Source: Lachnospiraceae bacterium (GTDB lineage: Bacteria; Bacillota; Clostridia; Lachnospirales; Lachnospiraceae). From it: 64,000 nt of DNA. Made by a program: the position numbers and the translations under genes. The notes under the pieces were generated by a model. It saw only the letters and a program-made list of their open reading frames with translations. It searched no databases and was not told where the DNA came from. The stretch spans positions 62,001 through 126,000 of the forward strand of contig JAFSIQ010000037.1 in the NCBI GenBank assembly GCA_017439675.1, written 5' to 3'. Positions 6,851 to 52,900 of this stretch are shown here, piece by piece (position 1 is the first letter of the stretch; every line of letters starts with the position of its first letter).

Positions 6851-6879
6851 TTCCAACTAAAAATTTTATCTTTTATAAT
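6851..6879 (+). promoter_or_regulatory. Promoter of MCP-like gene
   Basis: TTCCAA (weak -35, 6851-6856), 17-bp spacer and perfect TATAAT (6874-6879), about 35 bp before the start codon at 6915. A weak -35 with a strong -10 fits an activator-dependent promoter. Confidence 0.6.
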
Positions 6880-6914
6880 AATAAGCAAAGATATCATACC
6901 TAGGAGGAAATCAT

Positions 6915-8480: not shown

Positions 8481-8496
8481 ATTAACGCGACAGGAA

Positions 8497-12471: not shown

Positions 12472-12530
12472 GATTGCCTCCTGTTTATTCTTATATATTA
12501 AATGCACTGACAACTCCTTTGTTATAATGT

Positions 12531-12761: not shown

Positions 12762-14303
12762 CTATCTTTCAACTAACTGTTTACGTGAGTCATCCCAAAT
12801 ATTATAATCATCCTCTTCATCGTCATATGCCTCTTCGATTGCTTTCTTATAAATGTCATATGTTCCCTTTGGCACCGCAATTGTCATCATCTCATAACCT
12901 GTATTCACAAGACTAAAGCTCTGACCAAATTCTGGCACCTCCATGGATTGATATACAATGGTTCCGTTTTTGACACATGCAACCCCGTTTTGCTTCTTCA
13001 AACTAGCTGGGAAGATAATTTCTTTACATTTTTTTCCACCCACAAATACTGCCACATTAGTAACACCCTCTGGAATGATTACTTTTTCCACATTCTGTGA
13101 TAGTTGTAACATCACTATCTTCTCTGTATCAGTTGTCTTAATTAGAAGACCATTTTCAATTCCACATGCTGGATTGTTAGCATCTACAGTCACATTTATT
13201 GCTGCTGCCGTTTGTCCGCCAGCAAAAGCATATTCGTCTACATTCACAGCACACGCCGGAAGATTCAAACTTAACTTTCCATCTCCCCAAAATGCTGCTC
13301 TTCCAATATCAGTCACCTTCGGAAGCTGTCCAATAGACTGTAACTTTCTACAATTAGCAAATGCTCCATAACCTATCTTTGTTACATTATTGGTATTTTT
13401 AACCTCAGTTAAATTCGCACATTTATAGAAGGTTCCATCCGGAATGTTTTTAATCTTTTGATTCAAGGTTACACTGGTCACTCCTGTTCCAGCAAATGCC
13501 AACTTTGTAATCTTTGTTGTCTTGCTAGAAATCTTTACCTTTTTGACAACCTTTGCAGACGCACCGATTAACGTTTTCTCATTATAAGTATATAGGATAC
13601 CCTTTTTCATCTTGAACTTCTTGTTCTTTTTATCAATGATAACCTTTTGCGTCTTGTAATTGACAACTCCTGCACCAATCTTTTTCACTGTTGCCGGAAT
13701 GTAGATTTGTGCAATTTCTCCGGCTGCACAATCCTTCAATTCATAGGTTCCCTTCGGAAAACGAATGCTGTCCAAAGCAGTTCCTCCAAATGCATTCTTC
13801 CCAATTGTTAACTTCTTATAGCTGTTTGCAAATACAACCGTTTCAAGTTTATCGCATCCACCAAAGGCACCTTCACCAATATAGGTTACGGTACTTGGTA
13901 AAACAACCTTTGTAATGCCTGATGTAGAAATCCAATCTATATCTGCCGGCATCATCTTCCCATCAATACGATTATAACGATAATACCTATGCCCCGGCAT
14001 ATTAAGGTCTATATAATAGCCATCCGTTGTATCTGTTGTATCCTGATAATAAAACTCATGGTCTGCAATCTGTGTCACTGTATATTTCTTACCCTTATAA
14101 TATACAGAGCTTGGTATTGTAAGGGTTCCATCATCTTTTTTTGTTCCGCATACTTCCACCTTATTCTTTGAAATCGTATGGTAATACAAATCACCGGACT
14201 TAAAATATTTCCCTTTTCCCGCTGCCTGGGCAGTAATGCCAGACATTACAAACATCACACAAAACAAAAATGTTATCGTTAATACCTTTGATAATTTCTT
14301 CAT
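12762..14303 (-). CDS. Secreted BspA-type leucine-rich-repeat protein
   Basis: A protein of 513 residues. A signal peptide (MKKLSKVLTITFLFCVMF..., cleavage after AQA near 27) is followed by a beta-rich N-terminal part and LRR_5 repeats (about 125-440), for example IGEGAFGGCDKLETVVF and IGYGAFANCRKLQSI. BspA-type repeats mediate binding to host or other cells in gut and oral bacteria. No sortase motif or C-terminal membrane anchor is seen, and the tail is acidic (EEAYDDEEDDYNIWD). TGAGGAGGAAGTAGC precedes the ATG. It is 93 bp downstream of the subtilisin gene and may be co-expressed with it. Confidence 0.85.
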   Translation of the reverse strand: MKKLSKVLTITFLFCVMFVMSGITAQAAGKGKYFKSGDLYYHTISKNKVEVCGTKKDDGTLTIPSSVYYKGKKYTVTQIADHEFYYQDTTDTTDGYYIDLNMPGHRYYRYNRIDGKMMPADIDWISTSGITKVVLPSTVTYIGEGAFGGCDKLETVVFANSYKKLTIGKNAFGGTALDSIRFPKGTYELKDCAAGEIAQIYIPATVKKIGAGVVNYKTQKVIIDKKNKKFKMKKGILYTYNEKTLIGASAKVVKKVKISSKTTKITKLAFAGTGVTSVTLNQKIKNIPDGTFYKCANLTEVKNTNNVTKIGYGAFANCRKLQSIGQLPKVTDIGRAAFWGDGKLSLNLPACAVNVDEYAFAGGQTAAAINVTVDANNPACGIENGLLIKTTDTEKIVMLQLSQNVEKVIIPEGVTNVAVFVGGKKCKEIIFPASLKKQNGVACVKNGTIVYQSMEVPEFGQSFSLVNTGYEMMTIAVPKGTYDIYKKAIEEAYDDEEDDYNIWDDSRKQLVER

Positions 14304-30866: not shown

Positions 30867-31526
30867 TTATACCCCTTTTTGCAATAACTCTATCACTTCA
30901 AACAAAGAATCGTATATTTGATTCGTCAAAGGACGAATCTCATCCGTAGGTTCGATTAAATCTACCACCATAACAGTGTACAACCCCGCAGTTGCGGAGG
31001 ATTTTACACCATTAAGAGAATCCTCAATTCCCATCGCCTCTTCCGGCCGTACCCCCAAGTCCTCACAGGCCTTTAGGTAAATGTCTGGTGCCGGCTTACC
31101 ATTTGCAACCACACCACCATATACAATATGGTCAAAGTACTCTATAATCCCTGCGTTAGTCAAATTACGCTGAGCTCTTTCTTGCTGGGTAGAGGTGGCT
31201 AAACCAATCTTATAACCGTTGTCCTTCAAATAACAGAACAGTTCTACTACTCCCGGCTTTAACTCCACTCCATTTTTCAAGATATCCTGATCCATACGGC
31301 TCATAGTCTTTCCCCGAAACGTATCATAGTCAAAATCCTCACCAAATCGGGACTTTAACAGTTTCTCATTTCGTTCCTTTGTAGACCCGGCAATGAGATT
31401 GCAGAGTTCTCTCATGGTTTCCTCTGAAATCCCATACTCTGCACCGGTAATCATCCAATGCTTTCGATATAGCTTTTCGGAGTCGAAAATCACCCCATCC
31501 ATATCAAATACTACTGCCTTTATCAT
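30867..31526 (-). CDS. HAD-family hydrolase (beta-phosphoglucomutase-like)
   Basis: A protein of 219 residues. Motif I is VFDMDGVIFDSE (near 6-17), motif II the Ser/Thr in LATSTQQER (near 114), motif III the Lys in VVANGKPAPDIYL (near 150) and motif IV AMGIEDSLNGVKSS (near 168). The cap is the alpha-helical C1 type. It is likely a sugar-phosphate phosphatase or phosphoglucomutase. Its ATG overlaps the end of the giant Ig-like gene by 4 bp, so the two are probably co-translated. Confidence 0.9.
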   Translation of the reverse strand: MIKAVVFDMDGVIFDSEKLYRKHWMITGAEYGISEETMRELCNLIAGSTKERNEKLLKSRFGEDFDYDTFRGKTMSRMDQDILKNGVELKPGVVELFCYLKDNGYKIGLATSTQQERAQRNLTNAGIIEYFDHIVYGGVVANGKPAPDIYLKACEDLGVRPEEAMGIEDSLNGVKSSATAGLYTVMVVDLIEPTDEIRPLTNQIYDSLFEVIELLQKGV

Positions 31527-34500
31527 AATTTACTCTCTTCCTTTTCTTTTTTCCGGATGCGCAACCACGCAATAACCGTAACGCCAACCATGATTACCGC
31601 AACACCTGCACCCACCACAAACAGAATTGTTGGATTTGTATAGACAAAATGCAAATCTCTTGTGACAGCATTACCTGCCCGGTCTTCACAATCCACTTCA
31701 ATCCAATACGCTCCGTATTCCGTGTAAGTAAAGCTTCTCATATCAGCACTCTGTTCCTTACCATTTATACGAACTGCCTTGATGGTATCGTCTGTATTGG
31801 TAAGGGCTAACGTAACCACTCCACTTTCCGTCACTACTTCCGTATCCTGTACTCCGCCGAAAATCACCTTTGGTGGCGTATGGTCAATAATGAATTCTAC
31901 CATCTGATTAACAGTATGCCCCAGTTCATCCTCAACTTCAATATATAGATTATATTTGCCCTCCTCTTCAACCACGTCGGTTCCGTTATATTCCACACCA
32001 TTCAGCAAAATCCGATAAGAAATCACCGTTAAATCTTTAAAGACATCTCCAATGGACTCTGCTATTTGGAAGGATTGATAATAACCTCCATCCAACTCTA
32101 ATACGTTTTGAATAATAGGAGCTGTCTTATCTATAGTAAAATGTATAGCTTTGCTATCCGTGTTACCCGCTTCATCCTGTGACATAACTTGAAACTCATA
32201 GATTCCGTCCTCCGTGAACATGTAAGCCAACTGACTTACCTTTCCACTATTAGACATTGCGGGAACTTCCACATTCTCCACGTTACCATTCATGTCTGTC
32301 CGAGTTCCGGTAATTGTCACCTTATTACCAGAATAATAGGATTCCTCCACCACAAACCGAATCTCCCGATTTTCCGACCACATCTGATAATCGTCCGTTC
32401 CTTCAATCCTAATAACAGGTTTTGTGTTATCAATCACAAAAGTCAAGGTCTGTGGCTGTGCGCTGTTACCCGCTTTATCTTTCGCAGATATAGTCACCTC
32501 ATAGGTTCCATCCTCTGTAAAAGACTTGGATGTGTTGGATTTCTTTGCCGTACTCACAAAATCATTAATCGTCGTACCACTAACCTCTCCATCCAATGTT
32601 CTCTCTATCTGAATGGTCACCTCGTTGGTTGCAAAAAATGATTCCACACAGGTGAAATCCAATGTGACAGAACCTACATGCACTGACCCATTTGCAACGC
32701 CAGACACCTGTACTACTGGTGCTGTCTTGTCAATTACAAATGACAAGGTGTTGGAGCGTTTCTTATTACCTGCCCCGTCCGTTGCAATGGCATAGATTTT
32801 GTAACTACCTTCCTTTAATACCTTCCGATTGCAATTATCCTCATACTGAGATGACTTAAATGTCGCCAACGACATAGTGCTAGTCTTACCGTCCAACGTT
32901 CTTGATACATAATACATCGTTCTTGTCTTATCGTAAGACACATCAGAAACCGTTGTCTGAAAAGATTGTGCCGCAGGATAATGCAAGTTTTTCGTTACCC
33001 CAGATAGTGTAATCACCGGTTTTTCTTTATCAATATAAACCTGACGTTTTGCAGTCTGTACTGTATTACAATTATTGGTAACCTCCACAGAAACTGCGTA
33101 ACCCGTCACTTTGTCCGCACTTTCTGAAGCCACTACTTCATATTCATAGCTATAAGTAAGTTCCTTAAAGGTTACTGTCTTTACTTCCTTGCCATTCACT
33201 TTATAGACGATTTTCTTCAGACCTGCCACATCATCTGTCACCTTAGTGTTAAAGGCAATATCTTGATTCGTCCACTTGCTGTAATCTTTATCACACTCCA
33301 TCGAAATCGTTGCTTTGCTCGTCTTATATATAATATCTTCTGTCCCTAAATTCGTTTCATTCCCCAACAAATCACTTGCCCAAATTGTAATGCTGTCACT
33401 GAATTCGCTGACCTTCAAGTCTGTGGGAATATACACATAATAATTGTTTCCAAGAGATTGATTAGCAACATAAAACGGCGTTTCACTAGTACGCTCGGAC
33501 GCTGTTCCCACCGTAACATATACCTTATCCTTATCTACACCCACCATGCTGTCAGTCACTGAGAACTCCACCAGAATCGCATGCTTACTATATATCTTAT
33601 TATGCCTTGCACTAAGCTTTCCTTCCTCATCGGAATAGGTGACTCCGTATATAGCCGGTGCAGTTCTATCGATGGTAAAGGAAACTGTCTTTTTCACCGC
33701 TTTATTGGTTGCCAAATCCTTACCCGTAACCGTCAGCTTGTAAATACCTTCCTTGTCAAATTTTAAGGTTCGGATAGAACCGTAAACATTTTGCAAAGAA
33801 GGAGCATAGCCATCTGTACTCCAGCCATTGCCAACATCATAAGCAGTCGTCACACTGCCAATATCAAATGCTTCTAACTCACCACTTATATCACTTCTAC
33901 TGACATGAATCTGATATTGTGTAAAATCATGATTGCGATCCTGTGCCTGCACATTGAGGGTTACTGCATCTTTTGTCATATATCCATTGGCAATTCCGTT
34001 GACAGACAATTCTGGCGATGTCTTATCCACCGTAAAGGATATGGTATATGCCTTTTGAGATGTTCCATATACAACACCCTCATTTCCTGCATAATCCTTA
34101 GCAGTTACCGTTATGGTATAGATACCCTCTTCGTTACAAGCATATTCGTAAGTACCGTCCGCCGACTTTAAATTCATCGTATCTGTTGTCTGATAAGTCT
34201 GTCCGTCTAACATCCGGGACACCGTGATGTTGGCAGTTGCACCTTCATAATTGTACTCATAAACATTATACCGAAACCGTACATTGTGATCGTAATACGC
34301 ACCGTTCTCCAAGTCCGATTTCTGCGAAATAATTGGTGCAGTGGAATCCATGTAAAAGGATACCTGCTTACTGTTTTCATTACCTGCCAAATCTACTGCT
34401 GTAAGCGTCACAGTATATCGTCCCTCTTCTCCAAACAAGGAGGTGTTCTCATAATAAACCTCATTGGTTCCTGCAATTGTATTCCATGTGATTGCATCAC

Positions 34501-36535
34501 CGGACAAAGTAGTATTCTGCGGCCAGAAAGAACCATCCTTCCAAAGATTGACTGTAATTGTATACTGACTGAGGTCGTGATAATCCTCTTTCACTACAAA
34601 TCGCAACAAGTTATCACTTCCTGCAAACAACTGATTCTCTGCTATATCGATAGTAGTTCCGTTTTTCACCTGTAAAATTGAAGGCACTGGTAACGTTTTA
34701 TCAACAACATAGCAAATCTCTTTCTTCTCTCCTTCGTTTCCTACGTTGTCCTTTCCATAAACCGAAGTCACATAGCTTCCCTCATCAGAATAGGTAACTG
34801 TTTCCTTTTGTCCATCTGCCGTTATCTCAATCGTCTTATTATCTACAGATACTCCGTCTCTCTTTGTATCCACATATGCAGTTGCTTTACCATTTTCCTC
34901 TGCAATCTTAAAGGACACCTTGGCTGTATCTTTCAGATAATACGTTGTCACAGAATTCTCCGTCACTGTATTCGGGCTACCAAATATTTTATCTTCATAG
35001 GTAACCTTTAATTCTTCAATTGACACTGCCGTATTATCTACTGTAATGCGAACCGATTTCCCCACATCGTTATCACTGACATCTGTCACATAAAATGCAA
35101 GGTAGTAAACGCCATCCTCCATTGCGTAATCTGCAAAGTTAACTGTTGTCTTCCACGTATCCTCTTCTCCTTCTTCGGAAGACTCCACCCAATTAGCATT
35201 GATCGTTTTCCAATCACCATTCATTTTTTGATATGTAATAGCACAGTCATTACTATCATCACAAACCAACTCGAAATTTCTCTCTACCACAGAGAAAATT
35301 AAGTTCATTCCCGTCTTGGTAGAATACACACCCGGAACAAGTTCATTTCCTTCATCATCCATAATTGATAACACCGGTTCCGTTCTGTCAATATAAAATG
35401 TTATCTCATCCGTAGTGACACTGTTGCCTGCCTCGTCTGTGGCAGTGGCAGAAATAGTATACTTTCCCTCTTCTGTAAAAGTAAGGGTTGCCGTAGAATT
35501 GTCAAACCCAATCTCATCTCCATTTTCATCCTTTGTAAACGTCTGATTGGTTGTAGTAGTCACTCCCTCGCACTTCACATTAACAACTACATCACAATTA
35601 TCAAAATCATCATCCACCACCGTCAAAGTGCAGGATATCTTTTCTTTATCTGCCTTATCATTATCCGTACAAACTAAAGTTACTTCTGGCTCCTCAGAAT
35701 CAATGGTAAAAGTCTTTGTTTGCAAACTTCCAACAATCTGACCATTGCTATCCTCCAACCAAAAAGTCACCTCATAGTCCCCATCTTCAATCGCAAACCT
35801 GTTATCTTCATTCGTAGAAATTGTATTTGTAAAGTCCTCCGACGACTCGCAAGATGCAAAATCTGCACCATTCCCCAACGCAATTTCGCCATCTGCAATT
35901 ATCTGATCAGAAGACAAATCCTCATCTGCCTTTTGAACCACTTTGCGATATGCAGTATAGGTCTCACCATCAAATGGCCTGTCTGCCTGATAGGTAACCG
36001 TTACTGTATTTTGCACAATACTGCCACTGACAGATAACTCCGTACTCGGCGACACCGTTCCCAACACAAAAGAGAAACTCACCTCACTATCAGACACCAT
36101 CTCGCCAGCAGAATTCTCTGCCCAACAATCCAACGTATACCGACAGTTAACCGCATCCTCCCCTGCATTCTGTACAGGATTTTCAATAGTAATGGTTCCA
36201 CTCGGAGAAGACAAACTTTGTACTTCTGATGGATTTCCGTCATTTTTAGTAAGCGTATACTTACAACTATATGTTCCATCCGTATATGTTGTATCATAGG
36301 CATATGCAAGTTCTACTTTCGAACCGTTAATTATTTTCTTATCTACATTGTCACCGCTGGCACTGACTCCATCTACAGAACTAAGAGTCACCGCTACCGC
36401 CGATGCAACTGTACTTGCACTCTCCTCAGCAGATACCACAGCCCCATGCTTCACACCGGAAAGCAAATTGAATGCTAGCAAAATAGTCATAATATATGCA
36501 ATTATTATTTGTATTTTTTCACGTCCGTAATGCAT
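31523..36535 (-). CDS. Giant membrane-anchored surface protein with about a dozen Ig-like repeats
   Basis: A protein of 1670 residues. A signal peptide (about 1-37, ending AVVSAEE) is followed by a series of roughly 100-residue Ig-like domains. Each ends with a strand like F(T/V)(I/V)D(K/R/N)TAP, as in FTIDRTAPAIYGV, FVIDKTAPVVQVS and FVIDNTKPVIRIE; I count about 12 such junctions. One C-terminal membrane helix (FVVGAGVAVIMVGVTVIAW) and a short basic tail (RIRKKEKEESKL) anchor it. It stands as a long arm outside the cell. It is 52 bp after the ETTLL-repeat gene, placing it in the kinase cluster. Ligand unknown; AAAGGAGCCGGAA precedes the ATG. Confidence 0.85.
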   Translation of the reverse strand: MHYGREKIQIIIAYIMTILLAFNLLSGVKHGAVVSAEESASTVASAVAVTLSSVDGVSASGDNVDKKIINGSKVELAYAYDTTYTDGTYSCKYTLTKNDGNPSEVQSLSSPSGTITIENPVQNAGEDAVNCRYTLDCWAENSAGEMVSDSEVSFSFVLGTVSPSTELSVSGSIVQNTVTVTYQADRPFDGETYTAYRKVVQKADEDLSSDQIIADGEIALGNGADFASCESSEDFTNTISTNEDNRFAIEDGDYEVTFWLEDSNGQIVGSLQTKTFTIDSEEPEVTLVCTDNDKADKEKISCTLTVVDDDFDNCDVVVNVKCEGVTTTTNQTFTKDENGDEIGFDNSTATLTFTEEGKYTISATATDEAGNSVTTDEITFYIDRTEPVLSIMDDEGNELVPGVYSTKTGMNLIFSVVERNFELVCDDSNDCAITYQKMNGDWKTINANWVESSEEGEEDTWKTTVNFADYAMEDGVYYLAFYVTDVSDNDVGKSVRITVDNTAVSIEELKVTYEDKIFGSPNTVTENSVTTYYLKDTAKVSFKIAEENGKATAYVDTKRDGVSVDNKTIEITADGQKETVTYSDEGSYVTSVYGKDNVGNEGEKKEICYVVDKTLPVPSILQVKNGTTIDIAENQLFAGSDNLLRFVVKEDYHDLSQYTITVNLWKDGSFWPQNTTLSGDAITWNTIAGTNEVYYENTSLFGEEGRYTVTLTAVDLAGNENSKQVSFYMDSTAPIISQKSDLENGAYYDHNVRFRYNVYEYNYEGATANITVSRMLDGQTYQTTDTMNLKSADGTYEYACNEEGIYTITVTAKDYAGNEGVVYGTSQKAYTISFTVDKTSPELSVNGIANGYMTKDAVTLNVQAQDRNHDFTQYQIHVSRSDISGELEAFDIGSVTTAYDVGNGWSTDGYAPSLQNVYGSIRTLKFDKEGIYKLTVTGKDLATNKAVKKTVSFTIDRTAPAIYGVTYSDEEGKLSARHNKIYSKHAILVEFSVTDSMVGVDKDKVYVTVGTASERTSETPFYVANQSLGNNYYVYIPTDLKVSEFSDSITIWASDLLGNETNLGTEDIIYKTSKATISMECDKDYSKWTNQDIAFNTKVTDDVAGLKKIVYKVNGKEVKTVTFKELTYSYEYEVVASESADKVTGYAVSVEVTNNCNTVQTAKRQVYIDKEKPVITLSGVTKNLHYPAAQSFQTTVSDVSYDKTRTMYYVSRTLDGKTSTMSLATFKSSQYEDNCNRKVLKEGSYKIYAIATDGAGNKKRSNTLSFVIDKTAPVVQVSGVANGSVHVGSVTLDFTCVESFFATNEVTIQIERTLDGEVSGTTINDFVSTAKKSNTSKSFTEDGTYEVTISAKDKAGNSAQPQTLTFVIDNTKPVIRIEGTDDYQMWSENREIRFVVEESYYSGNKVTITGTRTDMNGNVENVEVPAMSNSGKVSQLAYMFTEDGIYEFQVMSQDEAGNTDSKAIHFTIDKTAPIIQNVLELDGGYYQSFQIAESIGDVFKDLTVISYRILLNGVEYNGTDVVEEEGKYNLYIEVEDELGHTVNQMVEFIIDHTPPKVIFGGVQDTEVVTESGVVTLALTNTDDTIKAVRINGKEQSADMRSFTYTEYGAYWIEVDCEDRAGNAVTRDLHFVYTNPTILFVVGAGVAVIMVGVTVIAWLRIRKKEKEESKL

Positions 36536-36587
36536 TTCCGGCTCCTTTCTTCTATGTCTGCTATTTAGACAATTGCAAAACTCTAAT

Positions 36588-37313
36588 TTAAGTGATAGCC
36601 GTTGTCAACAATGTGGTTTCTTCTTCACCCATCAACAAAGTAGTCTCTTCGTCTACCAACAGCGTAGTTTCTTCTTCACCCATCAACAAAGTAGTCTCTT
36701 CGTCTACCAACAGCGTAGTTTCTTCTTCACCCATCAGCAGAGTAGTCTCTTCGTCTGCCAACAGCGTAGTTTCTTCTTCGCCCATCAACAAAGTAGTCTC
36801 TTCATCTACCAAAACAGAGGTTTCATCTCCCTCTAACGGATTGGTCACTCCCTGTTCCACTAACAATGTAGTCGCCTCATCTCCAGTTTCTGTGTTGTCC
36901 ACCCCTGAATCTGTAGCCAATACCATCATTTCTTCCTCTACCTCAAATATATTTGCTGCAGAATAATCCGAACTTTCCTGTATTGCCTCTAATATACTCT
37001 GATTCGGTGCTACTTCAACCTTAGGTACTTTAGGTACAACGGCAATACTCTTACCTTCACCCTTTTCCCTTGATGCACTTCTAGCAGATGTGGAACCTCT
37101 CTTATGAACTGTCTCTTGTTTCTTTGCAGAAAAATCCCTTTGGGACTTTCCATCTTCTTCCTTTTCATAAATCTTCTTGATAGCTCTTTTTGCATTCCAA
37201 CCAGTTACATCACCAATCAGTTTTGCAACATGATTACGAACAAATAAAACAATGCTAATCACCAAAAAAATCAGTGCAAGCGTCAATCCTACATAAAACA
37301 TTATTTGGTACAT
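36588..37313 (-). CDS. Membrane protein with ten ETTLL-type phospho-acceptor-like repeats
   Basis: A protein of 241 residues. One N-terminal membrane helix (about residues 4-24) precedes a basic cytosolic stretch (KRAIKKIYEK, SARSASREKG) and an acidic tail. From about residue 146 the tail carries EATTLL, ETSVL and eight EETTLL motifs, alternating LLMGE and LLVDE spacers; it ends TTLLTTAIT. The motif resembles ETTSVF of GarA/OdhI, where kinases of the PknB/PknG type phosphorylate Thr for FHA binding. The gene is 4 bp after the Ser/Thr kinase gene, with GGAGG inside that gene's last codons. The start is the ATG at 37313. A phospho-scaffold role is inferred. Confidence 0.8.
   Translation of the reverse strand: MYQIMFYVGLTLALIFLVISIVLFVRNHVAKLIGDVTGWNAKRAIKKIYEKEEDGKSQRDFSAKKQETVHKRGSTSARSASREKGEGKSIAVVPKVPKVEVAPNQSILEAIQESSDYSAANIFEVEEEMMVLATDSGVDNTETGDEATTLLVEQGVTNPLEGDETSVLVDEETTLLMGEEETTLLADEETTLLMGEEETTLLVDEETTLLMGEEETTLLVDEETTLLMGEEETTLLTTAIT
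36605..36800. repeat. 51-bp tandem coding repeat (ETTLL units)
   Basis: About four units of 51 bp, each coding MGEEETTLLVDEETTLL with small changes, lie in frame in the membrane protein gene. The copies are nearly identical at DNA level, so copy number may vary between strains. Confidence 0.85.
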
Positions 37314-37317
37314 GTCA

Positions 37318-39369
37318 TCATCCTCCATTTCTCTCAAATAATGGAGAAAGCTTCTGTGTCAGCTGCTTCCACCGATAGTCATCTTCTATGCCTGGAACCT
37401 TACTTCCCTGCTCATACAAACCATACAACTTATCGTAATCCCATAATTCCACATTGGTTGTCTTTTGCTCCTCCATCTCGCAGAGAAGAGAAAGATGACC
37501 TGTATATAAAGAGATACTCGCATCCTTATAGGATGCTCCCTTTGCGGTTTTATAATATGCTTCCTCTGCGGTCTCATATACCTCACAGGCATCTTCGTAC
37601 TGTCCCAACGCCTCATAGATATCCGCCTTTTGACAATACTTTGCCTCACGAAGCTGGTAGTCTGCCACACTGTCAATGGTCTCCTCCGTATCCCACGACA
37701 ACATGCTTAAAATAAAGTCACAGCATTCCAATGCTTTATTATAGTTCTCCTTTGAAGCTTCCGGATTCGTCTCTGCCAGACTTTCCCCTAAATGCTCATA
37801 CGCCAATGCAAGATACTGGTTATAAACTGCATAATACTCCGCTTTGATACTGTCGTCCTCATAATCCTCCAAAAGCTGCAAACCTTTGTTCGCCACCTGT
37901 ACAAGACTCTCTGCTGCCGTATCCATTTGATTCAGATTTCTAGCGTATACAATACAGAGCAAGCGATAATTCATCAATTTGTTAATGGATATGGTGGTTC
38001 CGTCATTAGTGGCTTCAAATTGCTGTAAATTCTCTAAGAGCTCATTATAGTCCACATGCAATTCGCCCATAGCCATCGCAATGGTGCTATAGTACTCTGC
38101 CTCCGGATGCTCATTCAAATCCAACATGCTAAAGTAGTACGCACTAGATTTATAATCCTTTAGTACTTCAAAATAGTTCAATGCCACATTGAGTAACACA
38201 TCTTGATTCTGGTGTATATTGTCATACTTCTGATCCACGTAATAGGTTACACGGCTAAGCCCTGTTTCCGCATCATCCATATAGTTAATATACAAATTCA
38301 TAAGTTCGATATATGCAGTGTCACGACTTCCATCCACCTCTGTGATTGCATCTACATATACACCGGCAGCCTCATCATACCTCCCCTGTACAGTATAATT
38401 AAACCCTTCTCGGATCATGTTTTCATAGTTACTACTCTGCTCTTTTTGGTTACCGATATATCCCACAACTGCCATAATTCCAAAACAGACAGATAGCCCT
38501 GCAGTTATCAAGAAGCTACGCATCTTTTGAAAACATTCCTTGCGAAATGCATCATCCAATTCTTCGTAATGCTCCAAATCATACATCAACTCTGCACAGC
38601 TTTGATAACGATCCTCTGGATTCGGCATAGTACATTTGCTGATAATCTTCTCCAACCCACTAGAAAGCGTAGTATCCCAATGGCGAATCGGTTTTATTAC
38701 ATATGGTGGCTCACAAGGATTCTTGCCTGTCACAATATGATATAATGTAGCACCCAAACTATAGATATCTGTTCTTGCATCCGTCTTGTGAATACCTCTC
38801 CCCTTAGAATCACCAAACTGTTCTGGTGCTGCGTAGCCTCTAGTTCCTAACGCTGTAGTATCTGCCAAGCTTTCCACATCTAGCTCTTTCGCTGTTCCGA
38901 AATCAATTAGTTTCACTTTACCATCTGGTTTCAACATGATATTAGAGGGTTTCATATCGCGATAAATAATTGGTGGATTCATGGAATGTAAATAATCCAG
39001 TGCACTACAAAGTTCCTTTGCCCATCCAATTACCTTGTCCTGCGATTGTGCTCCGTCCATACTCAGCACCTCATTCAACGGACGACCTTCTATGTAATCC
39101 ATAACCACAAACACATTACCACTGTAGTCAATAATATCCACTATTCTCGGAAGCACTGGATGATCTACCATTTTCAGAACATTCGCCTCCATTTGAAGAC
39201 CCTTTAGCAAGGTTTTCTTATCCTGCTTATTACTCGTCTTAATCTCCTTAACAGCCCACTGCTTGTTTAGGCGAGTGTCCATAGCCAGATATACAATAGA
39301 CATTCCGCCTTGTCCGATTTTTTTCAATATTTCATATTTGCCGCCTAATACAGTGCCAACTCTTGTCAT
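37318..39369 (-). CDS. Membrane Ser/Thr protein kinase with extracellular TPR-like region
   Basis: A protein of 683 residues. The Hanks-type kinase domain (about 12-275) has the glycine loop IGQGGMSIVYLA, Lys in WAVKEI, catalytic YRDMKPSN, DFG in LIDFGTAKE, a Thr-rich activation loop ADTTALGTRGYAAPEQF and DIYSLG. One membrane helix (about 291-311) is followed by about 370 residues of helical repeats with TPR-like patterns (YDEAAGVYVDAI, YEDACEVYETAEEAYYKTA), which should lie outside the cell in place of PASTA domains. It sits between the PP2C gene and the ETTLL-repeat gene. Probable targets are that tail and the FHA protein. GAGGTGAGTAC precedes the ATG. Confidence 0.92.
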   Translation of the reverse strand: MTRVGTVLGGKYEILKKIGQGGMSIVYLAMDTRLNKQWAVKEIKTSNKQDKKTLLKGLQMEANVLKMVDHPVLPRIVDIIDYSGNVFVVMDYIEGRPLNEVLSMDGAQSQDKVIGWAKELCSALDYLHSMNPPIIYRDMKPSNIMLKPDGKVKLIDFGTAKELDVESLADTTALGTRGYAAPEQFGDSKGRGIHKTDARTDIYSLGATLYHIVTGKNPCEPPYVIKPIRHWDTTLSSGLEKIISKCTMPNPEDRYQSCAELMYDLEHYEELDDAFRKECFQKMRSFLITAGLSVCFGIMAVVGYIGNQKEQSSNYENMIREGFNYTVQGRYDEAAGVYVDAITEVDGSRDTAYIELMNLYINYMDDAETGLSRVTYYVDQKYDNIHQNQDVLLNVALNYFEVLKDYKSSAYYFSMLDLNEHPEAEYYSTIAMAMGELHVDYNELLENLQQFEATNDGTTISINKLMNYRLLCIVYARNLNQMDTAAESLVQVANKGLQLLEDYEDDSIKAEYYAVYNQYLALAYEHLGESLAETNPEASKENYNKALECCDFILSMLSWDTEETIDSVADYQLREAKYCQKADIYEALGQYEDACEVYETAEEAYYKTAKGASYKDASISLYTGHLSLLCEMEEQKTTNVELWDYDKLYGLYEQGSKVPGIEDDYRWKQLTQKLSPLFERNGG

Positions 39370-39473
39370 GTACTCACCTCTTTATTAAAGACTCGTCCGC
39401 GAATCCTGGTGTCAAATTCGCGTCAGCCCAACTGACATAGTATATCTGCAAATCTGCGTACATCCTCACGCGT

Positions 39474-40247
39474 TTACGGTCTCACTACAATTCCTACTAC
39501 GGTTATGTTATCCCGCTCTCCTCTATTCATCACTAACCTAATCATTTCTCGACAGGTGCTTGTAATCGTATCCTTATCTGATAAAATACCAGGATTAAAT
39601 TTTTGTTGCAATTCTTCCTCTGTTACCAAGTGTACAAATCCATCTGAGCAAAGAATAAATGTTACCGCATCCTTCAGTTCCCCACAATCAAATTGCGGTT
39701 CTACGACAGTTGATGCACCTACGCACTGCAACAATATGCTTCTTCGCGGATCCACTTTTGCTTGCTCTTCTGTAATGATTCCCATTCGAACCTCTTGTGC
39801 TACCAAAGTATGATCAACCGTAATTCTCTGCAAGACATTGCCCACCTGATATAGCCGACTATCACCCACATGACAGACATAGTATTGATTCTGATAAGTC
39901 AATAAAGCCGTAACTGTTGTCCCTAGAGTAAGTCCCTGCTTTCTGGCATAATCCGCCAACCTATCATTCACCGCATCAATTTCACTTCTCCACTGAGTAT
40001 ATATCAATTCCTCAGACACAGTATTTGTGGCTACCATCTTAGCAAACCTAGTGTCAAACCATCGATTCATTGCTACCACAACCTCTTTACTTGCCAATTC
40101 TCCTTGTTCTAAACCACCCATTCCATCACACACAATCGCAAACACAATCTTACCCTTTGGAGAGTTCACCACTTTAACCGACAATGAATCCTGATTAATT
40201 TGTTTTGTTCTTCCCACATCTGTATAATACGATGCTATAATTTCCAT
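39474..40247 (-). CDS. PP2C-family Ser/Thr phosphatase
   Basis: A protein of 257 residues, a single PP2C domain. Metal-binding motifs visible are NQDSL (near 18), VCDGMGGLEQGE (near 39-50), HVGDSRLYQV and CSDGFVHLV, plus the terminal GERDNITVVGIVV. It should remove phosphate from proteins modified by the neighbouring kinase. It has no membrane helix. It lies between the FHA and kinase genes, all read leftward. A 104-bp spacer without a clear terminator separates it from the kinase gene. Confidence 0.93.
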   Translation of the reverse strand: MEIIASYYTDVGRTKQINQDSLSVKVVNSPKGKIVFAIVCDGMGGLEQGELASKEVVVAMNRWFDTRFAKMVATNTVSEELIYTQWRSEIDAVNDRLADYARKQGLTLGTTVTALLTYQNQYYVCHVGDSRLYQVGNVLQRITVDHTLVAQEVRMGIITEEQAKVDPRRSILLQCVGASTVVEPQFDCGELKDAVTFILCSDGFVHLVTEEELQQKFNPGILSDKDTITSTCREMIRLVMNRGERDNITVVGIVVRP

Positions 40248-40377
40248 AAATAATATCCACCCACATTAAACAATACACTCTATAACAGCATCGGGTTCCC
40301 TGTAAACAGGAAACCCGACTCTTCTACACACCAAAACTATTATAACTAGTCATTCAATCCTTATGTACAAAGAGCAT

Positions 40378-42219
40378 TTATCTTAATTTGAAAACAAACT
40401 CCTCATCACCTAATACAATCTTACAATCATGTGTAAGCAATTCGTTATCCCCTTCATCTAATATCTTACCATTAACAAATGTATGATTTGTAGACTTATT
40501 ATCCTTCACATAATATACATCATCCTTACTGGTAATAATGGCATGCACTCGGCTAACTGCACTGTTTCCCTTAACAGTATAGTCCACTCCCATACTTGCT
40601 TTACCAATTTTGAAGGTTTGCTTTGTAATCATCACTCGCTCTTCTGTATTCACACGCACCAAGTAAGGCATTGCCTTTGGAATATCTGCACCTTTCAAGA
40701 TGCCGGTAGCACCAATCGTCTGACTCAAAATAGAGTTACTTACTACCTCTTCCTCTGCATCATCCTCATCCAAAACAACTTCTTTCGTCATCTCAAGCTG
40801 TCTTGACTCCTCCTGCGTGTTCATCATAACGCTAGCACGATTCACCTTAATATTTTTCTTTATCTTCAAGCCGGTTTCCTCGCGCTTTGCTCTTCTTTCT
40901 TCCAACTCTTGTTCTGCCAAAAATTCTTCAAAATCATCTTGAATCACACCAGAAGCTGATGTGGTTCTTGTCTTAAAGGTTGGCTTCTTAGGCGAAACCT
41001 TCTCTTCTGTTTTAACAGATGTTGCTTTCGCCTCCTGCACCTGTTTCTTCAAGCTCTCAATTATGCTTTCTGCTTCTTCGTCAGTTGTCATGGTTTCCGT
41101 CTCTGGTGCAAAGATGGCACCTGTCTGCGCTTGAGTCGTATCTTCTATCTCCTCCGCTTCCGACTGAACCACTTCCTCAATTTCTTCTGCCTCTGCCTGA
41201 GGCACCTCCTCAATTTCTTCTGCCTCTGCCTGAGGTACCTCCTCAATTTCTTCTGCCTCTGCCTGAGGTACTTCCTCAGCTTCTTCTACCTCTGCCTGAG
41301 GTACCTCCTCAATTTCTTCTGCCTCTGCCTGAGGTACTTCCTCAGCTTCTTCTACCTCTGCCTGAGGTACTTCCTCAAGTTCTTCTGCCTCTGCCTGAGG
41401 TACTTCCTCAGCTTCTTCTACCTCTGCCTGAGGTACTTCCTCAAGTTCTTCTACCTCTGCCTGAGGTACTTCCTCAAGTTCTTCTGCCTCTGCCTGAGGT
41501 ACTTCCTCAGCTTCTTCTACCTCTGCCCGAGGTACTTCCTCAGCTTCTTTTTCCTCTGCCTGAGACACTTCCTCAGTTTCTTCCGCTTCTTCAGCAACCT
41601 CTAACACTTCCTCATAATCTACATATATATCCGCAGAGGAATCTTCCGGAATAGCAATTCCCATGGTATCCATCAATTCTTCAATCAATGTAACCAAATT
41701 ACGCATATTAAAAAGCCCTGGCGTATTGATATAAGTCAAAAGCCTTGCCACATAATCTCCACTTTCACAGGCATCAAAACGCAAACTAGCAATAAAATTT
41801 CTAAGGAAGACATTCAAATCTGTCTCTTCCTTCATCTCCTCTAACGGAATACAAATAAATTCCACCTCATACTCAGAATTAATATAAATATAGTTACGAT
41901 GAAGCACTAAATAGGACAATGGAATACGGTACTCTGCCATATCAATCAACGCCAACACAAGTCCACGCATAACCATCAGAACCATCTCTGCATTAATTTC
42001 CTGATTGGACAACTCACACAATCGAATCTTATCAGTCACGTTATAAGAAAAGGTATCTTCTTCTTCTCCCTCTTCAAAAATAATAGGAACAAGTCCTTTC
42101 GGTTCCTCATCCTCTAAGAAATCTAATACCTCCTCATCCAAAACTGCATCATTCTCAATGTTGTAAGTTAAAAATTGTTCTTTATCAAAATTTCTGACTC
42201 TAAAACTTACCTTTTTCAT
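40378..42219 (-). CDS. DUF6382-FHA protein with long acidic repeat
   Basis: A protein of 613 residues. The N-terminal DUF6382-like domain (1-190; FRVRNFDKEQFLTY, PLSYLVLHRNYIYI) is followed by a repeat region (about 210-360) of some 14 ten-residue units, EEVPQAEAEE with A/L/I changes. A charged linker leads to a C-terminal FHA domain (about 515-613) with IGKASMGVDYTV, SRVHAII, STNHTFVNGK; the phospho-threonine-binding Ser, Arg, His and Asn are present. FHA domains bind phospho-Thr peptides, so it is the likely reader of kinase output. The start is the ATG at 42219 after AAGGGGATATTAGT. It is the first gene of the cluster, with its own promoter. Confidence 0.88.
   Translation of the reverse strand: MKKVSFRVRNFDKEQFLTYNIENDAVLDEEVLDFLEDEEPKGLVPIIFEEGEEEDTFSYNVTDKIRLCELSNQEINAEMVLMVMRGLVLALIDMAEYRIPLSYLVLHRNYIYINSEYEVEFICIPLEEMKEETDLNVFLRNFIASLRFDACESGDYVARLLTYINTPGLFNMRNLVTLIEELMDTMGIAIPEDSSADIYVDYEEVLEVAEEAEETEEVSQAEEKEAEEVPRAEVEEAEEVPQAEAEELEEVPQAEVEELEEVPQAEVEEAEEVPQAEAEELEEVPQAEVEEAEEVPQAEAEEIEEVPQAEVEEAEEVPQAEAEEIEEVPQAEAEEIEEVPQAEAEEIEEVVQSEAEEIEDTTQAQTGAIFAPETETMTTDEEAESIIESLKKQVQEAKATSVKTEEKVSPKKPTFKTRTTSASGVIQDDFEEFLAEQELEERRAKREETGLKIKKNIKVNRASVMMNTQEESRQLEMTKEVVLDEDDAEEEVVSNSILSQTIGATGILKGADIPKAMPYLVRVNTEERVMITKQTFKIGKASMGVDYTVKGNSAVSRVHAIITSKDDVYYVKDNKSTNHTFVNGKILDEGDNELLTHDCKIVLGDEEFVFKLR
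41140..41590. repeat. 30-bp tandem coding repeat in the FHA gene
   Basis: About 14 near-identical 30-bp units coding (E)EVPQAE(A/V)EE(A/L/I) in frame, with the outer units more diverged. The opposite strand has long open frames rich in Leu only because of this repeat. Confidence 0.9.
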
Positions 42220-45157: not shown

Positions 45158-47194
45158 TTATTTTGTCTTAACCTTTACTATCTTACTATAAGTACCATAT
45201 ACTTTCTTTCCTGCTGAATCTACTTTGTATGCACGCACCTTCACGTAATACGTCTTCTTCTTGCTCAGCTTCGTAATCGTTGTATTGGTCTTGGTTGCTG
45301 TAATTTTCTTAACCTTTTTAAACTTCTTGCTGGTCGAATATGTAATCTCATATCCTTCAGCACCACTTACCTTTTTGTATTTCACAGTCATCTGCTTTGT
45401 CTTCTTGCTCTTCACAGATAATCCGGATACTTTCTTTGGCTTAGATACCTTCTCCCACTGTGCATATAAAGTCTGATTCTGTGTGACTTTTGTAGAAGCA
45501 GTTACCTTCGTACCACCACTTTTCTTTGTATACCATCCCTTAAATGTGTAACCCTTTTTCTGAACAGTTGGCAATGCTCCGATTTCCGCATTGGCATCTA
45601 CCACCATGCTGGACATGCTTAATTTGCTACCACCATTCTCATCGAACGTAACCGTGTATTTTACCACAGGTGCCGGTTGTGGTGTTTCTTCTGTTCCTTC
45701 GGAGTTCGACTGCCAATGTGCGTATAATGTCATATCCGCTGTAATGACCGTCTCTTCTGTTACCTCTAATCCGCCTGTCGGATGTGTAAACCATCCCAAA
45801 AATGTGTATCCATCTCTCTCTACAGTCGGCAATTCACCGATTTCAAAATTCTTTACGATTTGACGACTTGGTTCACTCAGTTTTGTTCCACCATTTGCAT
45901 CAAAGGTTACCGTACAACGTGGCAACGGCGTATATCGACAATTAATCTCCTTGTCCTCAGCATAATAATATGCTGCAGAAAATTCTTCACATACAAAGGT
46001 AATATTTTCTTTGTCACAATCATCAAATGCCCAAAAATCTATCTCTGTCACAGATGCCGGAATCTCGATATCCCCTGTCTTTGCAGCTAGACAATAGATT
46101 AATCTGCTCATATCCTTTGTGTATAAGATATCATCCACCACTACAAAGCTATCACTATCTTCGGATACATTGATATTTCCCAATTTCAAAGACCTATTAA
46201 ACACCATTGTACCTATAGAAGTAACACTTGCCGGAATGGTAATAGATTCCAACTTCGAGCAAAAATAGAAAGCCACATTGCCTATGGAAGTAACACCTTC
46301 CGGAATGGTAATAGTGGTTAATTCAGTGCACGCAGAAAAAGCGTCTTCGGCAATCGTAGTAATTCCTTCTTCTAATGTAATGCTCTCCAAATTGTGACAC
46401 TCACTAAATGCACTCTCACCGATAGTCTTTACATTCTCCGGAATCGTAATACTTGTTAATCCAGTGGCGTAAAACGCATTCCGCTTTATCTCTACCACAG
46501 TGTCCGGAATCGTAACAGATTTCAGTTCATCTCTGCAACCATAAAAGGCAGACTCGCCAATAAATGTAACACTATTCGGGATTGCAAAGGATGATTCTGT
46601 CTTACCGGGTGCATATGTAACCAATTCACTTTTCGTCTTATTGTATAAGTTCCCATCGTCAGATGAGTAGTTCGCATTATTGGCATCCACCGTTATGTTC
46701 GTCAATACTGAACAGTGCAAAAAGGCACTTTCTCCAATGCTTGTCACACTGCTTGGAATCGTAATCGATGGTAATGCCTCACATCCATCAAAAGCCTGAC
46801 TTTCTATCGTCGTAACACTATCCGGAATGGTGATACTCGTAAGAGCGCCACAATCTCGGAATGCATAATGTCCGATACTGATTACCGTATTCGGAATTGT
46901 AATAGATGTCACATCTCTCGTGTCGTTATGATAACTGTAAAACGCATTGTCGTCTATTCGTATAACAGTCTTACTGTCTATTGTACTAGGGATATCAATT
47001 TCCGTATCATCACCAGTATATCCTGTAATCTCTATTTTCCCGCTCTCAACCTCTCGATACCAGTAGGTCTCTGTGGAATCCCATGTGTCACCTTCGTTTT
47101 CTGCCTGTACCTGCATCTGCGTATTCGGACATATCATAATTCCCGATACTACCAAACAGAATGACAGAAACAGTGCTAAAATTCTTTTCTTCAT
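45158..47194 (-). CDS. Secreted LRR protein with two InlB-type B repeats and an Fn3 domain
   Basis: A protein of 678 residues. A signal peptide (MKKRILALFLSFCLVVSGIM, cleavage near 30) precedes LRR_5 repeats (about 60-410; TSIGESAFLHCSVLTNITV, SIGNVAFYFCSKLESITIP). Two B repeats (Flg_new type) follow, with TVTFDANGGTKLSEPSR and TVTFDENGGSKLSMSSM, each ending LYAHW or LYAQW (about 430-585). A C-terminal Fn3-like domain is rich in Lys (YEITYSTSKKFKKVKKITA). This is a typical gut adhesin layout. No sortase signal is present; the basic end may hold it to the wall. GGAGAAAC precedes the ATG. Confidence 0.9.
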   Translation of the reverse strand: MKKRILALFLSFCLVVSGIMICPNTQMQVQAENEGDTWDSTETYWYREVESGKIEITGYTGDDTEIDIPSTIDSKTVIRIDDNAFYSYHNDTRDVTSITIPNTVISIGHYAFRDCGALTSITIPDSVTTIESQAFDGCEALPSITIPSSVTSIGESAFLHCSVLTNITVDANNANYSSDDGNLYNKTKSELVTYAPGKTESSFAIPNSVTFIGESAFYGCRDELKSVTIPDTVVEIKRNAFYATGLTSITIPENVKTIGESAFSECHNLESITLEEGITTIAEDAFSACTELTTITIPEGVTSIGNVAFYFCSKLESITIPASVTSIGTMVFNRSLKLGNINVSEDSDSFVVVDDILYTKDMSRLIYCLAAKTGDIEIPASVTEIDFWAFDDCDKENITFVCEEFSAAYYYAEDKEINCRYTPLPRCTVTFDANGGTKLSEPSRQIVKNFEIGELPTVERDGYTFLGWFTHPTGGLEVTEETVITADMTLYAHWQSNSEGTEETPQPAPVVKYTVTFDENGGSKLSMSSMVVDANAEIGALPTVQKKGYTFKGWYTKKSGGTKVTASTKVTQNQTLYAQWEKVSKPKKVSGLSVKSKKTKQMTVKYKKVSGAEGYEITYSTSKKFKKVKKITATKTNTTITKLSKKKTYYVKVRAYKVDSAGKKVYGTYSKIVKVKTK

Positions 47195-49983: not shown

Positions 49984-52900
49984 TTACTTCTTAACCTTAA
50001 CCGAAGATTTCTGTCCCTTTTTTGCAAATAAGGACTTATACTGTGCTAATTTCTTCTTTGGTACTTTAATCACACATTTCTTGTGAATGCCCTTAAGTGC
50101 ATTTGTTCCAACAGAAGAAAGTACGGTAGACTTAACTGTAATCTTCTTCAAAGCCTTACAATTAAGGAATGCCTGTGTTCCAAGTGAAGTAAACTTCTTT
50201 GGAAGCGTAATTGCTGTCAGTTTCACACATTTTGCAAAGGACTGGTTTCCTATGTTGGTCAGCTTCGCACTAGAAGAAATTGTTACAGTCTTAAGCACCT
50301 TACAGTTATAAAATGCTTTGTTTTCGATTCTTGTTACAGAATTAGGAATCTTAACCTTCGTTAACTTGTAACAATTCTGGAAAGCACTCTCACCAATCGT
50401 ATTCAGCTTGCCTTTTGATGCAAGTGTCAATGTCTTCAACTTCTTACAATTGTAGAAGGCTTTCTTTCCAATTGTTGTCACTTCACTACCAATCTTAACT
50501 GTTGTAAGATTACTACATCCAGAGAATGCATTCTCCTCAATGTTCTTCACGTAGTTACCGATAGAAATGGTTTTAATCTTCTTGTTGTTCTTAAACATAC
50601 CAGCCTTAATGGTAGTAACCTTGTAACGCAATCCATTGATGGTTACCGTATCTGGAATCACAACATTCGTTGTAGAAGAATCGCTTGATCCTTCGTAAAC
50701 CACTTCACCTTGAAGGTCAGTAGTACTTACTCTTGTAACCTTTACCTTGGCTCCTGTTGCAGGGTCCACTGCTTCCTGATTCGCCTTAACAGTTGGGTAC
50801 TTCACATTGATGGAAACCGTTGCGGTTTTCTTATAACCACCCTGTGAGTTGTTAGCTGTTGCTGTAATCTTGACATACTTGCTAACACCATCTGCCTTTA
50901 ATACCTGTACATTACCATATTGGTCTACAGATACATAATCTGGTGCATCAGATGTAAATGTAATCGCCGTATTAGTCAGATTATGGAAATCTGCCATATT
51001 TGCTGAAGAACATACCTGATTAAAATAATTCTTGTATTCCTTGAATACAGAAAATGCACTTCCTGGGGCTGCTCCACTGTTGTATTCTGATGGAACCTGC
51101 AATGTAATCGTATTAACATCAGAACCGACAGTCACTGTATAGGTTTTCTTATACTTTGCTTTCTGTTCCTCTGTACATCCCTCTGGATAAACGCTAATGG
51201 TTGCCGTACCAAGACCTGCAGGAATCAAACAAAACTTCATATTAGATGCATTTGTTGTAACCGTTCCATTAGAGGCTGTTGTTGTAGCCTTAGTGGTATA
51301 TGTCGTAGGTGGCGTAGCCAATGGAGAGGTACTAGAGCTTGGATAAATAACCGCTGGATTACTAGTCTCTACCACAACATTACTACTTGGTATTGTAGAA
51401 GCCGTCTCATAACGGTCAACCATTGAATAATAATATGTAGCTGAACCCTTAGAAGCATTAATTGCCTGTATCTGAGGTGCACTTGGCCACTGGTTTGTCA
51501 GCTTATTATCTGTGTAAACAACCGCCATTGGTGATGGGTCAACCACACGAATATTATAAGTTGCATTAAAGGAATCGGAGTTAATGGTATAGCCATCCTT
51601 ACAGGTAAAGCTAATTCCCGCAATAATCTCTAATTGTATACGCTCATTCGGTGTTGTTTCCCTCAAACCAGACACCTTGATTACATCTACATCACCGGTA
51701 GTATTTCCGTACTTAACCTTCTCTGTATCTGCCGTCTCTAATCGCGTGAAGTATTCCTCGCTCACTATATATGCAGGATCGTTTACATTGGTACACTTAT
51801 AATAACCATCACTTACCTTTGCTCTTACCTGCAACAACTGTTCTACATCTGTATTAGTCTGATCATTCCTATCCACAATACGAATTGCCGCAATACTAGA
51901 GGTGCCCTTTTCATTCACATAATATGGGAAGGACATCTGCCTTCCATAGGATACAACGGTTTCCTCCGGTGTATCTACAGTCACAGATATCTGAATCCCG
52001 TTCTCACTCGTCTTCGTACCATTATTCATACCGGTTACCTGTGGCGTACTAACACCATCCACCATTTGACTGGTAGCCGATTCAAACACCTGCTTGCTTA
52101 CCGTAGTGGATGCATAAAATCTAAAATTCTTGAACTTAGCACAACTCTGCAACGCATCCTTTTTAATAATCTGCACTTCTTCACCAAAGGTCGCATCTGT
52201 CAATTGGCTACATAGTTTAAATGTATTCATTTCAATTACAGCCACCTTGGTTCCCTCTAACACAAACTTTGTCAGCTTCGTCCCCTCAAAGGCACTCTGA
52301 CCAATTGTTGTAAGCATGCCCGCGTTGGTAAAGTCAATATTCGTCAAACCGGAATTCACAAATGCACTAGCGCCAATCTCCTTGATTCCGGCACCAAGAA
52401 CAACCTCACCGATACTACTTGCATCCTTAAACGCATAGCTGTCAATCTTTAAGAGAGTATCTGGCAACGCCGTACCAGTTAGCACCAATTTCTCACAGCT
52501 AAGGAATGCGTTCTGACCAATTGTCTCTACAACGCCGAAATCCACAGTGGTGAGATTATCACAATCACTAAACGCATACGTGTCTAACTTCTTAACATTT
52601 GCTAAATCTATATTCTCCAAACCCTTGCAGCCAGTAAAGCAATACTGTCCGAGGGTAGAAGCACTTCCAAGTTCTACCGTTGTAAGAACGGCACATCCTG
52701 AACCCAAAGCACTCTTTGCAAAGGTCTTTCTATCAAGAATAATGCCACCATTTACATTATTCGTCGGCAATTTCACTGTGGTAAGATATTTACAATCCAT
52801 AAAAGTACCATAATCACTTCCAGAATCTACACTGCCATACCCGATTTCACTAAGATTCACAAAGCTTGTCAAGTCTGCCGATTCAATATAACTACCAGCA

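Follow-up and report, generated by a model that had tools for sequence, protein, structure and literature searches.

A stretch of 64,000 nucleotides from a Lachnospiraceae bacterium (contig JAFSIQ010000037.1, positions 62,001 to 126,000; hereafter the window) carries on its minus strand, at positions 31523-42219, a set of five genes encoding a DUF6382-FHA protein, a PP2C phosphatase, a Ser/Thr kinase, a tail protein, and an immunoglobulin (Ig)-like protein. The locus raises the question of whether these genes form a circuit of their own or belong to a larger machine. We consider it likely that they constitute a self-contained, envelope-anchored phospho-threonine circuit, which would correspond to the accessory half of the type VII secretion systems (T7SS) T7SSe/T7SSj used without the secretion ATPase. 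The initial annotation of the window had recognized five leftward genes; all five open reading frames (ORFs) are indeed open at the positions below, and the domains it named were matched in Pfam.

40378..42219, minus strand: DUF6382-FHA protein P0004, 613 aa, the 'reader' (Pfam FHA and DUF6382; fits the description of TseJ/TsjJ)
39474..40247, minus strand: PP2C/PPM phosphatase P0003, 257 aa, the 'eraser' (PP2C_2; fits TseF/TsjF)
37318..39369, minus strand: membrane Ser/Thr kinase P0002, 683 aa, the 'writer' (Pkinase; fits TseD/TsjD)
36588..37313, minus strand: single-pass tail protein P0001, a putative multi-site phospho-acceptor (TseK/TsjK-like by architecture)
31523..36535, minus strand: giant Ig-like surface protein P0005, 1670 aa (Big_13; fits TseI/TsjI)

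A Set Matching the Accessory Components of T7SSe/T7SSj

T7SSe/T7SSj are described as containing a transmembrane (TM) kinase with a helical outer domain (TPR in TsjD), a PPM phosphatase, a DUF6382-FHA protein, a single-TM protein, and an Ig-like envelope protein, together with an ATPase, WXG100, and YukD-like proteins (PMC11217815; this and the other published systems compared here are taken from partial texts of their sources). By description, the five genes of the window match the D, F, J, K, and I components, all of which have counterparts of the same kind: a TM kinase with a helical/TPR outer domain (TsxD), a PPM phosphatase (TsxF), DUF6382 plus FHA (TsxJ), a single-TM protein with an unstructured cytosolic stretch, recognized by architecture and position and with disorder judged from composition (TsxK), and a giant Ig-like protein with a C-terminal TM helix and a signal peptide identified by eye (TsxI). 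The view that no described system has this exact set can thus not be maintained.

The window differs from T7SSe/T7SSj in two respects. The single-TM component of these systems is presented in the available text as short and unstructured, with no motif named, whereas that of the window bears a ten-motif array, a comparison made by description. Moreover, no TsxC ATPase or WXG100 gene was found in the window's genome assembly (G000; 1.99 Mb, 70% complete). No EssC/TsxC exceeded the cut-off in G000, window included, where there was only an FtsK-like match (positions 469-661 of 1296; 119.6 bits vs. 778.4), and WXG100 (PF06013) gave no match at E ≤ 0.1, an absence that is provisional given the completeness of the assembly. 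In the literature searched, which left out most subscription journals, none of the papers listed describes such a stand-alone set in its title or abstract. Within these limits, three features are new, namely the acceptor motif, the predicted kinase-like DUF6382 fold, and the use without a neighboring secretion ATPase; the individual parts of the set are already known. Since the text available on T7SSe/T7SSj names kinases, phosphatases, and FHA proteins without a phospho-acceptor, the array offers a specific and testable candidate.

A Threonine-Anchored Motif Array in the Tail Protein

The tail protein matched no Pfam family; its TM helix and a GxxTG region are common to its relatives in the alignment.

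36606..36877, minus strand: ten-motif array, eight ETTLL plus ATTLL and ETSVL (sequence, tandem repeat, shuffles)
37239..37307, minus strand: TM helix of the tail protein, approximate (sequence and alignment)

The ten ETT(L/S)-type motifs reported earlier in the cytosolic tail were recovered as eight ETTLL, one ATTLL, and one ETSVL. Most of them rest on a 51-bp tandem repeat (36616-36812, 3.9 copies), and the codons of the five motif residues vary only synonymously among the eight ETTLL copies. Composition-preserving shuffles of the cytosolic tail (n = 500) contained a mean of 0.42 motifs and none of the 500 reached ten. A DNA pattern for E-T-T-[VLF]-[LF] matched G000 17 times, 8 of them in the tail array and the other 9 dispersed and nowhere comparably clustered (27 matches for the reversed control pattern).

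We extended the analysis to relatives, defined as the best 80 of 490 confirmed kinase stretches (loci labeled L). Motifs, scored as an anchor residue followed by any residue and [VILM]-L, with D/E at -3 to -1, were counted in 80 tails, that of the window and 79 from relatives (L008, with its tail joined to the Ig protein, was left out; contig ends truncate the tails of L002 and L003). The anchor was Thr 557 times and Ser 5 times, against a background of 1801 Thr and 1360 Ser, and eight other anchor residues gave 1 to 4 motifs each; dropping the acidic requirement yielded 573 Thr and 9 Ser. The median was 7 strict motifs per tail (0-15) versus 0.14 in shuffles, with 71 of the 80 tails above all of their 500 shuffles. 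Because these tails are kin, the counts are not independent events; distinct 10-mers numbered 439 for Thr anchors and 3 for Ser anchors. The bias is absent from 249 flanking ORFs (34 motifs at 5056 Thr, 37 at 4668 Ser), which were called mechanically at ≥150 aa and may include false genes. A further 20 rows had 31 Thr and no Ser motifs, a tally that includes two non-tail rows (L121 19345-19938, L092 7675-8268) and counts two loci again (L096 = L011, L140 = L077). On the strength of the shuffles, the Thr/Ser bias, and the genome pattern counts, we rejected chance and plain acidic low-complexity sequence as explanations of the array.

Position +1 of the motif is loose, with Asp commonest and Thr in the window, and the residues invariant throughout the family are the first Thr of the pair and the Leu at +3; the first Thr is consequently the likely acceptor. 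FHA ligands have the form pTxx[I/L/V] or pTxx[E/D] and strictly require phospho-Thr (PMC8786283). In its preference for Thr over Ser and its Leu at +3, the array thus bears an FHA-ligand-like signature, which lends strong, if indirect, support to its role as a putative acceptor. Sets linked to EssC also have such arrays in their tails (nine motifs in L142, six in L143, five in L147, five plus one Ser motif in L144). In L154 the tail protein is short and the FHA protein (11253-12500) bears seven T-x-[VIL]-L motifs, so that the acceptor array seems to have shifted from one partner to another. The tail of L132 (11339-12067) has another repeat, TTKLDL, again with Leu at +3 of Thr, possibly a convergent acceptor array.

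The most probable start codon of the tail gene is ATG 37313, 5 bases past the kinase stop and behind a GGAGG lying inside the kinase gene, rather than TTG 37337.

At the C-terminus of the tail in relatives (e.g., L011 9947-10528), we also noticed a recurring stretch resembling F-x-[VI]-x-E-[DE]-[VI]-x-[VI]-x-H-T-[DE]-E. In the window's clade, a similar stretch (NIFEVEEEMMVLA) is placed ahead of the array instead of at the C-terminal end.

A Predicted Kinase-Like Domain Fused to an FHA Domain

The putative reader P0004 matched Pfam FHA (E 6.8e-13) and DUF6382 (E 3.1e-11), and its parts are arranged as follows.

41650..42219, minus strand: DUF6382 domain with a predicted protein-kinase fold, interpreted as a degenerate pseudokinase (AlphaFold2 pLDDT 93.0, Foldseek)
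41171..41590, minus strand: acidic spacer of 11-aa repeats linking DUF6382 to FHA (33-bp unit, 12.7 copies)
40696..40710, minus strand: A-T-G-I-L (T-x-I-L) in the linker ahead of FHA, a possible GarA-like internal ligand (sequence)
40408..40611, minus strand: FHA domain with SRxH and STNHT..NG, and GK not GR (Pfam, residues 537-604)

The DUF6382 model is predicted to adopt a protein-kinase fold: its top Foldseek matches were the pseudokinase domain of Rv3910/MviN and YukC/EssB. The top VIA-align rows were eukaryotic kinases with tied Z, which leaves unsettled any special kinship with MviN or EssB. Near-invariant columns of the family are D28, L81, P125, and Y156, and the catalytic Asp and DFG, whose places were located by a non-significant profile alignment, are not among them. 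For this domain of so far unknown function, such a fold would provide a mechanistic hypothesis tying together EssB, MviN, and FhaA biology. The FHA signatures are largely kept in 76 relatives (GK in 72, SRxH in 68 and SKxH in 6, STNxT..NG in 58).

Kinase and Phosphatase

P0002 matched Pkinase (E 3.1e-50) and has one TM helix; TPR matches were under the Pfam cut-offs. YRDMKPxN and DFG are invariant in an alignment of 24 kinases, that of the window and 23 from relatives.

38452..38514, minus strand: TM helix of the kinase, approximate (hydrophobic stretch; one TM counted by script in L111)
37321..38448, minus strand: extracytoplasmic, all-helical TPR-like domain of the kinase (AlphaFold2 pLDDT 90.8, 18 helices)

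Foldseek matched the model of this outer domain mainly to TPR solenoids (best E 3.4e-4). P0003 matched PP2C_2 (E 9.4e-13). We excluded the possibility that the cluster was actually the housekeeping PASTA kinase/Stp pair: P0002 reached 211.7 bits with the PASTA kinase model NF033483 (cut-off 450), P0003 reached 178.3 bits with the Stp1 model (cut-off 230), and G000 has its own PASTA kinase elsewhere (G000:C44, 593.2 bits).

Conservation and Co-occurrence of the Set

The order FHA-PP2C-kinase-tail-Ig is kept across the 80 kinase loci as far as their flanks extend, with few exceptions. The FHA protein precedes the kinase in all 65 loci with at least 1600 bases upstream, and PP2C does so in 64 of the 65; a tail-protein match follows the kinase in 80/80 loci (fused to Ig in L008), and an Ig-like homolog lies downstream in 63 of the 66 loci with at least 3000 bases on that side. 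At least two FHA-protein ORFs were present upstream in 26 of 42 loci with long upstream flanks. The earlier proposal that writer, eraser, reader, and putative acceptor occur together is thus borne out by the order and adjacency in relatives.

Among 299 genomes of the window's family, 62 have the kinase and 54 the tail, with a tail match at most 2.5 kb from a kinase match in 52 of the 54 and ten kinase genomes without such a tail match. The co-occurrence search proposed earlier therefore rules out that the tail is a widespread protein found without the kinase. Only 6 of 64 tail-profile matches lack an adjacent kinase: in G175:C40 (E 4.9e-9) and G206:C17 (E 0.001) the match falls outside the TM part, in different proteins with similar motif repeats; that in G060:C62 (E 2.5e-5) resembles a pilus-assembly membrane protein; the others are in G113:C6, G176:C32, and G204:C20 (E 3e-4 to 0.006). 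In 341 genomes of the class, the kinase was found at E ≤ 1e-90 in 15, five of them in the window's family. A near search of a phage collection gave no match.

Proposed Mechanism

In the circuit that we propose, the kinase would sense the outside through its TPR-like domain, and perhaps also through the giant Ig-like partner, and would phosphorylate the tail protein at the first Thr in each acidic T-x-[VIL]-L motif. Once marked, the tail would act as a multivalent ligand that draws the cytosolic pseudokinase-FHA protein to the membrane, the number recruited depending on the marks; PP2C would remove the marks and reset the tail. The output is probably control of the envelope or of surface proteins.

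Several observations weigh against this circuit. Strict motifs are absent from four tails (L005, L007, and L010, from the window's clade, and L077), single in L009 (also of this clade) and L059, and two in number in L002, L003, and L018; without the acidic requirement, L007 is the sole tail of the 80 with none. Such losses imply that the array is dispensable in some relatives. In L008, the tail is fused to the Ig-like protein and the acceptor motifs are gone (1637-8678); this locus also lacks the PP2C gene while keeping the kinase motifs in an intact-looking kinase, a single case of joint loss, and L005, L007, and L010 kept PP2C though their strict motifs are gone. Conversely, similar repeats (ETTTVL, EGTTVL) occur outside kinase loci, in L174 1044-2297 (G175:C40) and L175 375-1493 (G206:C17). 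The G175 protein belongs to no Pfam family, the G206 protein is a proline-rich TM protein without Pfam match, and both genomes hold the set; these proteins may be further clients, or the motif may serve other FHA proteins. As for the reader, 18 of the 76 FHA relatives lack the STNxT..NG pattern, and the window's FHA has GK in place of the GR usual in many FHA domains. Comparison of the DUF6382 and kinase profiles brought no significant support (hhalign probability 3.5), the non-significant alignment placing Val at the catalytic Asp and C-I-P at DFG. Finally, since G000 is 70% complete, a T7SS core might sit in the unassembled part.

Alternative Readings and Genomic Contexts

A broader and decidedly tentative reading takes the J-F-D-K-I set as an autonomous, swappable cassette for envelope control rather than a secretion accessory. 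A variable number of phospho-Thr would set the clustering of pseudokinase-FHA, as a valency-coded switch, and the cassette would have been repeatedly joined to type VII secretion or Tad-like pili, or used alone, with the DUF6382-FHA protein coupling the mark to each machine. The genomic contexts were followed on a tree of 70 kinase rows, labeled as 44 stand-alone (i.e., no machine seen in flanks that are often ended by contig ends), 16 T7SS, 9 Tad-like, and 1 outgroup; L118 is mislabeled as stand-alone, being a short piece of the EssC-linked L077/L140 locus. The window falls in a 27-row clade (support 100) of 25 stand-alone and 2 T7SS-linked rows. Starred branches require the T7SS label to change at least 7 times and the Tad label at least 3 times, on a tree in which 28 of 64 inner branches are open and rooting with a PASTA kinase is unsafe (end branch 7.8). 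The forced changes suggest that the set moves between machines, or loses and gains them. This switching of homologous kinases among T7SS-linked, prepilin-peptidase-linked, and unlinked contexts also looks new. Sets without a neighboring secretion ATPase suggest that the signaling half is able to stand without its secretion counterpart, and this shifts which function should be sought.

We consider it rather unlikely that the set acts on a surface structure of pilus or adhesin type, the Ig protein then being the output and not the sensor. The giant Ig-like gene follows the tail gene, two BspA-type leucine-rich repeat (LRR) surface proteins are encoded within 14 kb upstream, and related sets adjoin prepilin-peptidase genes (Peptidase_A24) in all eight loci chosen by eye as Tad-like. 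Four TadE-like proteins gave nothing against Pfam, so that the label 'Tad-like' rests on the prepilin peptidase in these eight loci, on DUF5702 in L133, and on inspection by eye in L155. On the other hand, no pilus gene was recognized among the 19 window proteins scanned against Pfam, a subset of the window's ORFs, and the direction of signaling cannot be read from sequence.

We regard as still less probable that the set is part of a T7SSe/T7SSj whose ATPase, WXG100, and YukD genes lie elsewhere, and that it gates type VII secretion. The component set fits these systems, and homologous sets, or at least kinases, adjoin EssC in L011/L096, L012, L077/L140, L139, L127, and L141-L149; in L121, from the same-genus genome G234, EssC is 11 kb from the kinase. 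L096, the contig that bears L011, combines tail, kinase, PP2C, and FHA genes with three neighbors: an EssC that matches FHA, a WXG100 (75.9 bits), and a protein resembling YukD (25.7 bits, narrowly short of the cut-off of 27). EssC plus most of the set also occurs in L140, L142, L143, L144, and L147. EssC is moreover commoner with the kinase, being found in 33 of 62 family genomes with it and 35 of 237 without, in a cross-table built on 68 genomes with strong matches (64 over the cut-off). Against gating, neither EssC over the cut-off nor WXG100 was found in G000, which is among the 29 of 62 kinase genomes without a strong EssC match; EssC exceeded the cut-off in 19 of 46 genomes drawn from those of the 80 loci, and some genomes without it come from named isolates (e.g., Eubacterium ruminantium ATCC 17233, L067). 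EssC also lies near few kinases, within 40 kb of 13 of 65 loci and in the retrieved flanks of 3 of 80, which are lower bounds because the assemblies are fragmented.

Finally, it is very improbable that the array is an unphosphorylated spacer or low-complexity repeat in an operon acting through other substrates, such as the FHA protein itself in a GarA-like manner: a copy number from 0 to 15, the losses in close relatives, and the FHA protein's own A-T-G-I-L (with T-x-[VIL]-[LF] in the linkers of 26 of 76 relatives) would be in line with it, but a spacer fails to explain the Thr anchors, the Leu at +3, the many distinct contexts, the unbiased flanking ORFs, and the Leu at +3 in the different L132 repeat.

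Comparison with Other Phospho-Threonine Systems

One parallel to the proposed circuit is found in mycobacteria, where PknB phosphorylates the tail of the MviN pseudokinase domain, which thereupon recruits FhaA (PMC12599244). Both have a kinase, a pseudokinase domain (predicted in the window), and an FHA reader at the envelope, and the MviN pseudokinase domain is the best Foldseek match of the DUF6382 model. In the mycobacterial system, the pseudokinase and FHA domains reside on different proteins, and the phospho-Thr lies in the tail of the pseudokinase domain; in the window, one protein joins FHA to the pseudokinase-like domain, and another, membrane-bound protein is the putative acceptor.

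PppA is the phosphatase of the threonine phosphorylation pathway of type VI secretion systems (T6SS). There, PpkA phosphorylates a Thr of the membrane protein TssL, which an Fha protein then binds (PMC3953482), the same order of marking and FHA binding as proposed here. The T6SS pathway differs in having one site, Thr 14, and the protein that bears it belongs to the core of a secretion machine of Gram-negative bacteria; the two are likened by logic.

Binding by the FHA domain of GarA is intramolecular. The initial annotation had compared the tail motif with GarA/OdhI, a system with an FHA domain and an ETTS motif whose first Thr is phosphorylated by PknG in GarA (PMC5448819). The motif resemblance is reasonable; the architecture does not carry over, as GarA has motif and FHA on one small soluble protein regulating metabolism and the window's array is on a separate membrane protein.

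In T7SSb, a pseudokinase fold and FHA are also present in one machine. The contact between the YukC/EssB pseudokinase and the EssC FHA is reported to be phosphorylation-independent, the FHA residues for phospho-Thr not being conserved (PMC9600267), whereas the FHA of the window set largely keeps SRxH and related signatures.

The Ig-Like Protein and Neighboring Genes

P0005 matched Big_13 (E 3.3e-36) and has an N-terminal signal-like helix, judged by eye, and a C-terminal TM helix. BspA-type LRR proteins of the window are encoded at 49984-55656, 45158-47194, and 12762-14303. A YceG/MltG-like gene was seen upstream in 32 of the 42 loci with long flanks (e.g., L034 1219-2373, L017 1101-2150; Pfam YceG confirmed for two), which hints at a peptidoglycan link.

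G000 also holds two triads distinct from the main locus, at G000:C27:44714-47979 (L109 8714-11979) and G000:C14:61979-65227 (L110 9979-13227). Each comprises a TM kinase, a short protein that by eye resembles a zinc ribbon (CxNxHYYxxDKxxxCPHC), and a response-regulator/LytTR/FHA protein, whose domains would join a phosphorelay regulator to a reader of phospho-Thr. Similar short zinc-ribbon-like proteins are encoded near kinases in the T7SS locus L107 and near PP2C in L105.

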